A stretch of DNA of 64,000 bases from Rhodothermales bacterium (GTDB lineage Bacteria; Bacteroidota; Rhodothermia; Rhodothermales; UBA10348). The DNA is taken from positions 62,001-126,000 of the forward strand of contig JAEPNP010000003.1 in assembly GCA_017643395.1 (NCBI GenBank), read 5' to 3'. This document shows positions 45,013-49,784 of the stretch, piece after piece (the first letter of the stretch is position 1; every line of letters begins with the position of its first letter). Under the pieces are notes generated by a model that saw only the letters and a list, made by a program, of their open reading frames with translations, ran no database searches and was not told the DNA's origin. The position numbers and the translations under genes were made by a program.

Positions 45013-45300
45013 CTACAGATCCTGGAACCGGGCGTCCTCTGCCTCGATCGCACCGCCTGACTGCCCCGCACCCGGCTTGCGGTGCACGGTGACGCGCCCC
45101 GCATCGTGCTGCGCGCCTGCGGAAGGCCCCGACGCCGTCTGTCCCGACGCGTACCCCGGCCCGGAGGACTCGGCATACCCCTTCTGAGCGGCGCTCATGA
45201 CTTCCTCCACATTCTTCATGACCCCGCGCACGAATCGTCCGGCCATGAACATCTTGTAGGCCAGCCAGAGCAGGAGAACAATGAGGGCGATCTTGAACAT
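45013..45300 (-). CDS. small single-pass membrane protein (DUF4834-like)
   Basis: The 95-aa protein has one N-terminal transmembrane segment (MFKIALIVLLLWLAYKMFM) followed by a basic stretch and a low-complexity Gly/Ser/Ala tail. This layout, with residues like RFVRGVMKNVEE after the membrane segment, resembles DUF4834-type proteins of Bacteroidota, whose function is unknown. Its ATG overlaps the TGA of the upstream fusion gene by one base, indicating coupled translation. Confidence 0.65.
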   Translation of the reverse strand: MFKIALIVLLLWLAYKMFMAGRFVRGVMKNVEEVMSAAQKGYAESSGPGYASGQTASGPSAGAQHDAGRVTVHRKPGAGQSGGAIEAEDARFQDL

Positions 45301-46532
45301 CAGACGCGCACCGGGTTGAAGTATGTGGTGCCCGCGTAACCGACCTTCGCCACCTGTCGCACGATGGCCTCGAGGTCTTCCTCCGAGTGCACAAAGTCGA
45401 TCTGCTCGGTATTGACGATCAAAAGCGGGGTCGCGTTGTAGCGGAAAAAGAACTGCTCGTACGCCTGATTCAGCGAATCGATGTAAGCGCGGTCCATATC
45501 GCGCTCATACGAGCGCCCGCGGCGCGCGATCATGCGCATGAGCCGGTCCGTTGAGGCCTGCAGGTAGACAACCAGGTCCGGCTTGGGGATGGAAGCCTGC
45601 ATGATGCCGAACATGGTGTCGTAGAGCTGGAGCTCATCGCCCGAGAGATTGAGCTGTGCAAACAGGCGATCCTTGTCGAACATGTAGTCCGAGATGACCC
45701 TTGTGTGGAACAGGTCCGGGCCTCCAAGGGCCTGCTGCTGGCGGAAGCGGCTTGCCAGGAACGCGAACTGCGTCTGGAATGCCCACCTGGGGCGGTCCTC
45801 ATAGAACCTGGCGAGGAAGGGGTTCTCGTCGAACTCCTCCATCACCTCTCGCGCGCCGAACCGACGAGCCAGCAGCCGCGTCAGCGTGCTCTTGCCCGCT
45901 CCGATCACCCCCTCGATAACGACGTAGCGGATTTCAGACGGCAAGCGCTCGCTTACCCGCGCCTGCAACCCCCGACCCTCGCCGGGCCACAGCTCGGCCT
46001 GCGGCGCCTCACTGGAGTCCGGAGACAGGACGACGCCTGTCACGCGAGACGCCGAACCCTCGACTCCCTCGAGCAGGCCCGTCACGGTGGCATTCAGGCC
46101 TGGCACCCAGAGGTTGGGCGCAAGGTCGGCAAGCGGTCTGAGCACGAACTCCCGCTCTGCGATGCGCGGGTGCGGCACGACCAGACCGGACTCCAGAATC
46201 TCCTCGGTGCCGTAGAGGAGCACGTCTATGTCCAGCGTGCGCTGGGTCCACCGCGCGTCGGAGGAGCGTACCCGGTCATTTGCTACCTCAATGTCAAGGC
46301 AGCGTCGCAGGAGGCCTGCCGCAGACAGCGTAGTGTGCACGGAAAGCACCGCGTTGAGATAGGGCGGCTGCGCATCGCCCATGGTCACGGCCGCAGATTC
46401 GTAGACGGGCGAGCAGGCGATAACCTCGATCCCCTGTGACGATCCGAGGGCGCGCACGGCAGCCTGCAGATAGGCGGCGCGATCTCCCTGGTTGGAGCCG
46501 AGTGCTAGGTATGCCGGAGTGTGCTGGGACAC
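45300..46532 (-). CDS. folK: FolK-deoxynucleoside kinase fusion protein
   Basis: The 410-aa protein joins two enzymes. Residues 1 to about 160 are HPPK (FolK), with LALGSNQGDR at 10-18 and RTLDIDVLLYG near 98-108; it pyrophosphorylates the pterin of folate synthesis. After a roughly 40-residue linker, residues 201-410 are a deoxynucleoside kinase of the dCK/dGK type: P-loop GVIGAGKST (208-216), MEEFDENPFLARFY, SDYMFDKDRLFAQLNL, and the LID with RRGRSYERDMD. It salvages deoxynucleosides for dNTPs. Folate synthesis and dNTP supply meet in thymidylate production, which may explain the pairing. No frameshift is visible at the junction. Confidence 0.92.
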   Translation of the reverse strand: MSQHTPAYLALGSNQGDRAAYLQAAVRALGSSQGIEVIACSPVYESAAVTMGDAQPPYLNAVLSVHTTLSAAGLLRRCLDIEVANDRVRSSDARWTQRTLDIDVLLYGTEEILESGLVVPHPRIAEREFVLRPLADLAPNLWVPGLNATVTGLLEGVEGSASRVTGVVLSPDSSEAPQAELWPGEGRGLQARVSERLPSEIRYVVIEGVIGAGKSTLTRLLARRFGAREVMEEFDENPFLARFYEDRPRWAFQTQFAFLASRFRQQQALGGPDLFHTRVISDYMFDKDRLFAQLNLSGDELQLYDTMFGIMQASIPKPDLVVYLQASTDRLMRMIARRGRSYERDMDRAYIDSLNQAYEQFFFRYNATPLLIVNTEQIDFVHSEEDLEAIVRQVAKVGYAGTTYFNPVRV

Positions 46533-46640
46533 GCGTGCGTCTACTCCCCATTTACCCGGAAGATCGCCGGTTTTCCGGCCGGGCTCGATTCACGAAAGAA
46601 GCATGTATTTCTTATCCTTAGGGGTTCCACCTCCCCATTT

Positions 46641-48320
46641 GTGAACCAGGCTCTCGAATCGAAGGGGGACGCTTCCGCGCGTCTTCTGGAGTTGGAGGCA
46701 ACCAACCGCAGACTGCTCGAAGAGCGCGATGAGGCGCTTCGCGGTGCGCGGGAGTTGAGCCACCAACTTCAGATTGTCAGCGAGGCGGCTCTCCACAACA
46801 ACAGGCGGTACCGCGCGGTTTTGGACTCGCAGCACGAGTTCATTTCCCGCAGCCTGCCCGATACCACGTTGACCTACGTCAACGAGGCCTATTGTCGGTA
46901 TTTTGGTTGCACTCGCGACAAGGCCGTCGGAACGAGCTTCCTGAGATTCGTCAATCCTGACCACAGGGAGGCCGCTCGCGGGCATTTCGAAGACCTCGTG
47001 GCCAATCCCCGAGTGGTCGAGTACCAGCACGAAGTGGTCCGGCCCGACGGATCGCGAGCATGGAACGAGTGGGTGGACGTGCCGATTCGAGACGAGTCAG
47101 GACGCGTGGTTGAGTTTCAGTCGGTGGGCCGGGACATCACGGCCCAGCGCGAGGCGCAGCTGGCCTTCGAGGAATCCAGCAGCCGTCTGGAGGCCATCCG
47201 TGCGATTGAGAAGGCCATGTTGGCTGCCAAGGGGTGGCGGGAAGTCGCGGAAATCGCGGTAGGACGCCTGGCCGAAATGGTGCCGCCGGGTCGCGTGACG
47301 GTCTATGTGCAGGACGCCTCGGCGGCAGAGTTTCACCTTGCCGCATCGTCCGGCAACGACCATCTCAAGCATCCAGCGCTGCCAGTGGTCGACGTGGAGG
47401 AGGTCATTGGACTGCAGCTGTACGGGCTTCTCACGCGCGGGCAGGAAGTGCAGGTGGCCGACATGGACGCCATGGCCACGAATTCGACGTATGTGCAGAG
47501 GGTGCGCAGTTTCGGTGCCCGCTCAGGCTTCATCATCCCGCTCATGGCCCGCGGTCAGTTCTTCGGGGCCCTGCTGTTTTCGTTTATCGAGCCGCACGCG
47601 TTTACGGACCACCACGTGCGCATCGCCCGTGAACTGAGCAACACGCTCTCACTGGCCATCTGGCAAGCCCGAATCGTTGATCAGCTGCGGGCGACCAACG
47701 ACAAGCTCCGACTCATGTCACGTGAGTTGGTGGAGACGGAGGAACGCCGGCGTAGATATGTCGCCGCGGAGCTTCACGAGGAGATAGCTCAGATGCTCGC
47801 GGCCGCAAAAATGGGTCTTCATGCGGCCCGTTCGGACGCGCCGATTGGCGTCGGTGAGGACCTGGACCATCAGATCAAGCTGGTCGGTGACACGCTGGAG
47901 CAGGTGCGCAGCCTGTCGATGTTGTTGCGGCCCAATGTGCTGGAAGAGCAGGGTTTGTTCGATGCGATGAGCTGGCTGGTCGATCGACAGGCTGGACTGG
48001 AATCGGTAGAGGTCGACCTGGAACTGCCGGACGAGCGCCCGTCTTTGAGCCCGGCAGCCGAAATCACCTGCTACCGCATCGTGCAGGCGGGCATTGCCGA
48101 GGCACTTCGTGCAGAGGGGCTCAGCAGCCTTGCACTGTTGGCGCAGGTCTCCAAGGAGATGCTGGTGCTACATGTGATATTTGACGGGACGGCGCAGCGC
48201 ACAAGCGGCGAACTCCTCCAGCTTCAGGAGCGCACAGAACTTCTGGGGGGCACGATGCGCCTGAGCCGGCTCCCTGGTGGCAAGAATCGCATCACGGCCG
48301 CATTCGTGGCGGGGGACTGA
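46641..48320 (+). CDS. PAS-GAF histidine-kinase-like protein with degenerate ATPase domain
   Basis: From GTG at 46641 the product is 559 aa. An N-terminal coiled coil (about 10-50) leads to a PAS/PAC domain (about 55-175; FISRSLPDTTLTYVNEAY and EFQSVGRDITAQREAQ), a GAF domain (about 185-345) and a HisKA_3-like dimerisation helix with RYVAAELHEEIAQML, where the His is kept. The HATPase part is recognisable (CYRIVQAGIAEALRAEG) but the N-box Asn and the G1/G2 glycine boxes are missing; the corresponding segment reads HVIFDGTAQRTSGELL. It is therefore probably not an active kinase. It has no transmembrane segment, so it would sense in the cytosol. The LprI-like gene follows after 2 nt. Confidence 0.82.
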   Translation: MNQALESKGDASARLLELEATNRRLLEERDEALRGARELSHQLQIVSEAALHNNRRYRAVLDSQHEFISRSLPDTTLTYVNEAYCRYFGCTRDKAVGTSFLRFVNPDHREAARGHFEDLVANPRVVEYQHEVVRPDGSRAWNEWVDVPIRDESGRVVEFQSVGRDITAQREAQLAFEESSSRLEAIRAIEKAMLAAKGWREVAEIAVGRLAEMVPPGRVTVYVQDASAAEFHLAASSGNDHLKHPALPVVDVEEVIGLQLYGLLTRGQEVQVADMDAMATNSTYVQRVRSFGARSGFIIPLMARGQFFGALLFSFIEPHAFTDHHVRIARELSNTLSLAIWQARIVDQLRATNDKLRLMSRELVETEERRRRYVAAELHEEIAQMLAAAKMGLHAARSDAPIGVGEDLDHQIKLVGDTLEQVRSLSMLLRPNVLEEQGLFDAMSWLVDRQAGLESVEVDLELPDERPSLSPAAEITCYRIVQAGIAEALRAEGLSSLALLAQVSKEMLVLHVIFDGTAQRTSGELLQLQERTELLGGTMRLSRLPGGKNRITAAFVAGD

Positions 48321-48322
48321 CC

Positions 48323-49144
48323 ATGCGCACCGCTTCAGCATTACTAATCGCGTTGTGGCTTGTCACGGTGGGCTGCCAAACTCCGGCTTCGGACGTCGCG
48401 CCAGTTCAGTCGCCGGGCCCGGATGCCGGGCTGATTCCTGACGAGTATCCGGAAGCCGAAGTTCTACAGAGCTCTGACCTTCGGATTGTCGTCGCCGGAC
48501 ACTACACCTCGGGCCATGAGGCATACGTATTCCAGCCCTGTGGGGTGGAGGAGGCCTATTGGGTTGACCATGATGCGGGACTCGCATCCTTCCACGCGGA
48601 GGTTACCGACGAACCGTACGAGGGCGTGTTTGTCGTAGTCGAGCTGGGCCTCGAACCACCGGCGGATGACGGTTTCGCGGCCGATTACGATGGCGTGGTT
48701 TCGTTTACGCGAGCAATTTCGCAATCCCGGCGCAGTGCGGCGGACTGTGGAGCTGCCGAGTCCACGGCGGAGACCCCCGAAAGCGGAACGGCAGAATCCG
48801 ACGACCACCCCATCGACCGGAGAGCCGAAGCCTGTGCCGAGGCGGAGAATTGGACCACCACGGGCTTCATGATCTGCATGGACAGGGCGGGCACCGAGTG
48901 GGATGCCGAGTTGAACGAGCAGTATCAACTCCTGATGAGCCGACTCGAACCGCCGGAACAGGACGCGCTCCGTCAGGCCCAGCGGAACTGGATCACGTTC
49001 AGGGACGCAGAGCGTCAGCTGTATAGCGAGATGTACGGCAACCGGGAGGGCACGATGTGGCGCATGGTCAACATTGAGCTGATCGTTGGGCTCACCAGGG
49101 ATCGGGCGCAGGCACTGGCGCGGATAAACGCGGAGTTTCGGTAG
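48323..49144 (+). CDS. LprI-family (DUF1311) lipoprotein
   Basis: The 273-aa protein has a lipoprotein signal ending in TVGCQTP. A poorly conserved N-terminal part with a Cys pair (about 60-140) is followed by an acidic Ser/Thr/Glu linker and a C-terminal LprI domain (about 170-273): EACAEAENWTTTGFMICMD and DAELNEQYQLLMSRLEP, with a QAQRNWITFRDAE helix. LprI-type proteins include lysozyme inhibitors of proteobacteria and mycobacteria; members outside those groups are uncharacterised. It is placed 2 nt after the sensor-like gene and is probably co-transcribed with it. Confidence 0.82.
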   Translation: MRTASALLIALWLVTVGCQTPASDVAPVQSPGPDAGLIPDEYPEAEVLQSSDLRIVVAGHYTSGHEAYVFQPCGVEEAYWVDHDAGLASFHAEVTDEPYEGVFVVVELGLEPPADDGFAADYDGVVSFTRAISQSRRSAADCGAAESTAETPESGTAESDDHPIDRRAEACAEAENWTTTGFMICMDRAGTEWDAELNEQYQLLMSRLEPPEQDALRQAQRNWITFRDAERQLYSEMYGNREGTMWRMVNIELIVGLTRDRAQALARINAEFR

Positions 49145-49206
49145 CCACGTCGGGCTCCGACGATCGGTGCGGATTCGAGAGCCCGCCCAGGAACCGAAGG
49201 CGGCTG

Positions 49207-49665
49207 CTACGGGTGGAGTTCTTTCCAGCCCGAGTCCGGATCGTTCCCGAAGCAATCGATCCCCGCCAGCGCTTTCAGGGAATGTCGTGCCAGTGGACCC
49301 TGATACAACGGGGGTGCTCCGTCGGGAATCTGAACCTCCTGGGTCCACTCGTACGAGCGCCCGGCCTGAAGCACCTGAGCCTCCGCGATTGCGTACTCCA
49401 TGCGGAACGTTCGATTGGACGCGGAAACGGTACGCGTGGTACTCGAGTCTCCGGACGCGACTCGCACATTGGGAATCTGCACGTCCTCGGTTCCTTCAAT
49501 GTGGAGGTAGACACCGCTGCACTGCACGTCCTTGTCGCCTATGACCGCTGTAATGCGAATCGTAAAGGGCGTGTCGTAACTCAGCGGATCGGGCGAAATC
49601 GATACCTGCGCGCCCGACCCGGTGAGCGCACTCGTGGCCGACTTGATCCGATCGAGAAGTCCCAT
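49207..49665 (-). CDS. arrestin-fold protein resembling Spo0M
   Basis: From ATG at 49665 the product is 152 aa; the open frame continues upstream to 49773 but that part overlaps the groEL terminator. It opens MGLLDRIKSATSALTGSGAQ and continues as a two-sheet beta protein (VSISPDPLSYDTPFTIRITA, VYLHIEGTEDVQIPNV), like sporulation-control Spo0M/arrestin-like proteins, though shorter than the roughly 250 aa of Spo0M. It is cytosolic; function unknown in non-sporulating bacteria. It lies downstream of groEL on the same strand but beyond a terminator. Confidence 0.6.
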   Translation of the reverse strand: MGLLDRIKSATSALTGSGAQVSISPDPLSYDTPFTIRITAVIGDKDVQCSGVYLHIEGTEDVQIPNVRVASGDSSTTRTVSASNRTFRMEYAIAEAQVLQAGRSYEWTQEVQIPDGAPPLYQGPLARHSLKALAGIDCFGNDPDSGWKELHP

Positions 49666-49727
49666 GACGCTGACCCGGCTTGTTGACCACAAAATAAGCC
49701 CCGTTTCGTAAGGGCAGGGCGCAACAG

Positions 49728-49760
49728 AAAAGGGCGAGGCCGCAATCGCGACCTCGCCCC
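49728..49760 (-). terminator. rho-independent terminator downstream of groEL
   Basis: Read on the minus strand, GGGCGAGG and CCTCGCCC form a perfect 8-bp stem (arms at 49752-49759 and 49732-49739) with a 12-nt loop, followed by TTTTC. It lies 25 nt after the groEL stop and before the Spo0M-like gene. Confidence 0.8.
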
Positions 49761-49784
49761 TTCCATAAGCCAAAGCGGCGGGAC

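Follow-up and report, generated by a model that had tools for sequence, protein, structure and literature searches.

A protein of 559 residues encoded in the genome of a Rhodothermales bacterium apparently lacks an ATP site, though its C-terminal half is predicted to have the fold of a histidine-kinase ATPase domain. The gene lies within a 64,000 nt stretch of DNA, termed the window, which corresponds to C3:62001-126000 of a 4.5 Mb genome in a 21-contig assembly and to which all positions given without a contig refer. There is good support for the view that ATP use has been lost; the absence of ATP binding itself we infer. We tentatively read the protein as a lineage-specific pseudokinase of the HisKA_3 branch which, by analogy with RetS, may act through response-regulator phosphatase activity or docking. 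The gene, the parts of its product and the gene that follows it are listed here.

46641-48320, + strand: PAS-GAF-HisKA_3 pseudokinase gene, with a GTG start and a TGA stop, encoding 559 aa; recognised from its ORF, Pfam domains and GC content by codon position.
46806-47153, + strand: PAS domain, residues 56-171 (PAS_4 E = 3.5e-13, PAS E = 2.7e-11).
47241-47660, + strand: GAF domain, residues 201-340 (E = 7.7e-9).
47751-47939, + strand: HisKA_3 dimerisation/phosphoacceptor domain, residues 371-433 (29.3 bits, cut-off 24).
47775-47792, + strand: H-box core, His379-Glu380-Glu381-Ile382-Ala383-Gln384, which holds the phosphoacceptor His along with the phosphatase-motif Gln.
47970-48308, + strand: degenerate catalytic/ATP-binding half, residues 444-556, of predicted HATPase-like fold.
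48075-48116, + strand: former N-box, residues 479-492, with Ala483, Glu487 and Ala491 in place of Glu, Asn and His.
48180-48194, + strand: former G1 box, residues 514-518, with Phe in place of Asp and Ala in place of the second Gly; a shortened lid comes after it.
48323-49144, + strand: gene for an LprI-domain protein of 273 aa (LprI E = 1.3e-19), starting 2 nt past the pseudokinase stop.

The GTG at 46641 was chosen as the first in-frame start clear of the divergent gene upstream; an alternative in-frame GTG at 46521 overlaps that gene, and the codon-position bias there is weak (55/50/60). As had been claimed from a first inspection of the DNA, hereafter the original prediction, the PAS, GAF and HisKA_3 domains are all kept, each exceeding its Pfam cut-off, and HisKA_3 scores 34.7 bits when searched for in its own genome. 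No obvious membrane segment was seen by eye in the 559-residue protein, no Pfam match to a Response_reg domain was found within it, and scans for promoters and terminators returned nothing exceeding chance.

The catalytic half, by contrast with these domains, gave no Pfam match to HATPase_c at E <= 1, and a search of the organism's own genome for HATPase_c at E <= 0.1 found no match at the position of the pseudokinase. There are 11 places in this genome that match HisKA_3, and ten have HATPase_c within 400 nt, the pseudokinase being the sole exception. The lost residues were located in a multiple alignment that included 51 homologues, defined as distinct aligned segments spanning His379 as well as the G1 box at E <= 1e-4; these were taken from ORFs of at least 150 aa in loci L001-L177, with segments lacking either site dropped, and they include four paralogues encoded in the pseudokinase's own genome (L001, L002, L004 and L005). 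The N-box Asn, present in 51/51 homologues, is Glu487 in the pseudokinase, and the N-box Glu and His have become Ala483 and Ala491. Within the G1 box Asp is replaced by Phe514 and the second Gly by Ala518, and the first Gly is kept as Gly516; further on, the lid Gly has changed to Glu524 and the terminal Gly-Thr to Lys548-Asn549. The lid is also seven residues shorter than in a profile built from the 51 homologues. The G1 Asp was placed in 51/51 homologues by multiple alignment and in 33/51 by pairwise alignment, and the multiple alignment was adopted. Loss of the N-box Asn and of the glycine boxes, both part of the original prediction, is thus borne out, with Gly516 the only glycine of these boxes to survive.

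Of 29 columns conserved at >= 90%, the pseudokinase keeps one of nine at the ATP site and 16 of the 20 others (Fisher exact p = 8.6e-4, a value that depends on column classes set by hand after the column table had been seen). The nine columns that, from general knowledge of the motifs, we take to form the ATP site are the N-box Glu, Asn and His, the G1 Asp, Gly and Gly, the lid Gly and the terminal Gly-Thr; the four lost elsewhere are a Glu at position 370, the Asp that follows the phosphoacceptor His (Glu380), a Gly at 383 and a Pro at 556. A trivial explanation would be that an active kinase has been misaligned, or that a frameshift or assembly artefact has corrupted the gene, and the assembly, in 21 contigs, offers no second copy against which to check the bases. 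Such an error is nonetheless highly improbable and largely refuted: the profile alignment crosses the N-box without a gap, Pfam finds no HATPase_c, and a six-frame profile search of 47500-48500 scored 121.7 bits in the gene's frame, with nothing above 0 bits in any other. As the other five frames contain no match, no frameshift accounts for the loss, and the profile search and realignment put forward as a check on the original prediction recovered no intact N-box or G-boxes in any frame.

The catalytic (CA, or HATPase) fold is predicted to be kept. AlphaFold2 modelled the full protein with a mean pLDDT of 75.2 and a pTM of 0.34, residues 461-559 reaching a pLDDT of 84-92 per block and part of the GAF domain falling below 50, and modelled the DHp-CA portion with a mean pLDDT of 82.2 and a pTM of 0.62. 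The DHp-CA model resembles the CA domain of VraS (Z 18.1, 127 residues, 2.2 A) and DesK (Z 16.6, 122 residues, 1.9 A), a fold partly given in advance because the remaining rows of the input alignment are intact kinases. DesK (PMC5231405), NarX (cited in PMC3510030) and VraS (PDB) are reported to be of the same DHp subfamily and CA fold, but their CA domain binds ATP, whereas the pseudokinase is without the N, G1, G2 and Gly-Thr motifs. The idea of a dead ATPase half on a retained scaffold is supported by the missing HATPase_c match, the lost motif residues, the VraS/DesK-like predicted fold and an ordinary scaffold score, given below.

The dimerisation domain has been altered less. The phosphoacceptor His, found in 51/51 homologues, is kept as His379, and Gln384 preserves the phosphatase-motif Gln, found in 38/51. 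The residue following the His, Asp in 51/51 homologues, is Glu380 in the pseudokinase, making its motif ExxxQ rather than DxxxQ, and Ala383 stands four residues past the His, where 48/51 have Gly. Retention of the HisKA_3 helix, as originally claimed, therefore holds for His379 and Gln384 but not for these two positions, through which the H-box is altered. In HisKA_3 kinases, phosphatase activity reportedly requires DxxxQ at the His, whose Gln holds water in position and whose Asp makes contact with the regulator (PMC3510030, PMC5231405), and in NarX that Asp is described as one of two residues required for the activity (cited in PMC3510030). Since this Asp is Glu380 in the pseudokinase, phosphatase activity may be gone too.

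The same replacements of Asp by Glu and of the conserved Gly by Ala count towards a second, unlikely reading, in which the pseudokinase would be purely allosteric, neither carrying nor removing phosphate and exerting conformational control over a bound regulator, kinase or transcription factor, like DivL and NifL. DivL of Caulobacter, a pseudokinase with a kinase-like fold and poor nucleotide binding (PMC4211667), is reportedly without kinase or phosphatase activity and reads a phosphorylated regulator. Similarly NifL of Azotobacter vinelandii, a PAS-containing, kinase-like regulator without a kinase function (PMC11509896), is reported to be neither kinase nor phosphatase and to bind NifA. The Foldseek lists include both the NifL-NifA complex (rank 7 with the full-length model) and DivL (rank 18 with the DHp-CA model), although kinases of the same fold fill both lists. 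Each precedent also differs from the pseudokinase: DivL is described as having Tyr in place of the His (PMC4211667), whereas the present protein keeps the phosphoacceptor, and Gln384 with it, and loses the ATP-site residues instead. In NifL the GHKL domain reportedly continues to bind ADP and ATP, and the protein pairs with NifA (PMC11509896), whereas the lost ATP motifs of the pseudokinase argue against such binding. No NifA-type gene lies beside the pseudokinase gene, its neighbours being the LprI gene downstream and a divergent HPPK/deoxynucleoside-kinase gene upstream.

Whether the protein was decayed or repurposed had been left undecided in the original prediction. In leave-one-out BLOSUM62 scoring of the pseudokinase against the 51 homologues, its dimerisation domain scored 1.38 (homologue mean 1.52, with 12/51 lower) and its ATPase scaffold outside the motifs 0.87 (mean 0.92, with 17/51 lower), whereas its ATP-site columns scored -0.46 against a homologue mean of 5.74 (sd 0.28, minimum 4.75). 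With the motifs included, the ATPase half scored 0.36 against a mean of 1.40, the lowest of the 52 sequences. This last value is in keeping with a young decaying gene, which would have lost its function recently and have yet to acquire a stop codon, as are the gene's lineage-specific occurrence in a variable slot, the lack of a response regulator nearby and the failure to find an orthologue in the genomes and species searched. However, the losses gather in the ATP site (8/9 columns, as against 4/20 elsewhere), which counts against decay because an undirected process should not strike the residues of that site in particular. The frame is also open, with an ordinary scaffold score and normal codon-position bias along the gene: GC by codon position over residues 475-559 is 69/46/75, comparable to the rest of the gene and to its neighbours, and with a codon score for which nine other ORFs of the window served as training set, every segment came out in favour of the frame in which the gene is read. 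We accordingly hold recent decay to be improbable, and the loss of ATP-site columns with scaffold, dimerisation domain and codon-position bias maintained favours repurposing, without proving it.

The best match in another genome is a PAS-GAF-HisKA_3 kinase of 1057 aa (G051, L190:6154-9327), 31% identical over residues 48-546 of the 559-aa pseudokinase; unlike the latter, it has canonical motifs, and what by eye looks like a NarL-type response-regulator gene lies 21 nt downstream of it. The homologues read, for which the search of the phylum provided 30 loci, look like active kinases. No orthologue of the pseudokinase was found in 60 relatives, 114 genomes of the order and 394 of the phylum (overlapping sets), nor in two genomes of the same genus, one 98% and one 88% complete. 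Likewise, the last 80 residues, compared with 244 genomes of the class, matched only their own genome at E <= 1e-4. Six peptide patterns searched across 84,980 species revealed no orthologue among the best 80 of 228 relatives (79 loci), many of which match mainly in the PAS domain and from which the records nearest to this genome were possibly left out. The intact kinases found are thus distant homologues, the best full-length one at 31% identity, and so do not speak against the original prediction in the way that active orthologues would.

The order phosphomannomutase-like gene, HPPK/deoxynucleoside-kinase gene, groEL, groES is found in 7/7 family genomes, one of them with the first gene only partly matched, and neither the pseudokinase nor the LprI gene has a match at the syntenic site in these seven. 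In three of them the HPPK/deoxynucleoside-kinase gene is separated from groEL by 0.2 kb, and in the other four by 1.9-4.1 kb, so that the pair sits in a variable slot (46533-49784) before groEL. In the one genome whose slot was read (G001) it contains ORFs of 1055 and 169 aa. The divergent upstream gene (45300-46532, - strand) fuses HPPK and deoxynucleoside kinase; these form one frame in some family genomes (for example G001 and G010) and two matches in others (for example G003 and G004). On the other side of the slot, an ORF of 188 aa beside groEL (49207-49773, - strand) has no Pfam match above the cut-off.

The LprI-like gene reported 2 nt after the pseudokinase is indeed there, starting at 48323, and from the spacing it is a probable operon partner that would be co-transcribed. 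The original prediction calls it an unusual partner; the comparison made on this point covers the seven syntenic genomes, where both genes are absent. By eye, the N-terminus of its product is lipoprotein-like. The LprI domain occurs at a single place in this genome and in 10/60 relatives, this genome included. No full-length counterpart of this product was found in 26 other family genomes; in four of these a match at 34-39% identity is confined to the N-terminal part.

Split histidine kinases have already been published, and the retained His379 with its acidic neighbour would allow the pseudokinase to supply the acceptor half in a heterodimeric or split kinase, phosphorylated in trans by an intact HisKA_3 kinase. 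Intact HisKA_3 paralogues do exist in the genome, the best at 33% identity (C5:296754-297416), but this identity is low enough to make mixed dimers doubtful, no partner gene is adjacent, and the HATPase fold that has been kept would be superfluous in a pure acceptor; we think such a role distinctly unlikely. A dedicated regulator is not evident from position either. At eight of the ten HisKA_3 places with HATPase_c, a response-regulator domain lies within 1 kb, in one case in the same hybrid frame, whereas the pseudokinase has no close regulator, the nearest on the contig starting about 24.7 kb downstream. That regulator, of NarL type at C3:134976-135632 (L204:3977-4633) and the only one of its type on the contig without a nearby HisKA_3 kinase, was considered as a specific partner and rejected, since it is 80-82% identical in both genomes of the same genus, neither of which yielded an orthologue of the pseudokinase. 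In another HisKA_3 kinase of this genome, the HATPase_c match (G000:C1:583087-583347) spans one TGA, perhaps simply the end of the gene.

Under the reading that we prefer, of a HisKA_3 pseudokinase working through phosphatase activity or docking, the PAS and GAF domains would sense a cytoplasmic cue and shift the dimeric helical bundle of HisKA_3 into another posture. With its fold kept and normal ATP binding gone, the ATPase half would not support self-phosphorylation, and the His, the phosphatase-motif Gln and the surface for docking response regulators would still be on offer. Signalling would then most likely be lowered by dephosphorylating or holding a NarL-type regulator for which a different kinase is responsible, or through binding to that other kinase itself. 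The protein is probably unable to turn a pathway on, and damping one down is the likelier effect. What the analysis shows is the domain content, the selective loss of ATP-site residues, the retained frame and codon bias and the lack of a neighbouring regulator; the dimer, the target, the phosphatase or docking activity and the direction of the effect we infer. An N-box mutant of EnvZ is reportedly kinase-minus and phosphatase-plus, and EnvZ without its catalytic domain is said to have phosphatase activity (works cited in PMC5727384).

RetS of Pseudomonas aeruginosa offers a precedent for the proposed mode of action: it is described as having a degenerate HATPase domain, a retained H-box with an intact phosphatase motif and no capacity to autophosphorylate, and as dephosphorylating and inhibiting GacS (PMC5992135). 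The two proteins differ in architecture, RetS being reported as a hybrid of the HisKA family that carries REC domains and senses in the periplasm, and the pseudokinase a HisKA_3 protein with PAS and GAF domains and no REC; they also differ in phosphatase motif, HExxT in RetS (PMC5992135) and ExxxQ here. A more far-reaching scenario, possible but rather doubtful, is that selection erased ATP binding and spared the phosphoacceptor and phosphatase surface, yielding an 'off' sensor dedicated to NarL-type regulators, RetS-like in another kinase family, that would have newly arisen in one species and be translated with an LprI-type envelope lipoprotein.

The reach of these observations is limited to a single gene in a single genome, with no orthologue found in the sets searched. 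Kinase-dead histidine kinases acting by phosphatase activity or docking are already known from a few systems, and a literature search found no HisKA_3 pseudokinase among the titles and openings of abstracts listed, which in one case covered 25 of 44 papers; what is new here is a kinase-dead sensor variant in the HisKA_3 branch. A match to HisKA_3 alone is thus insufficient to call a protein an active kinase and, if the proposed reading is true, this case could show whether regulator phosphatase activity in the branch needs nucleotide binding.
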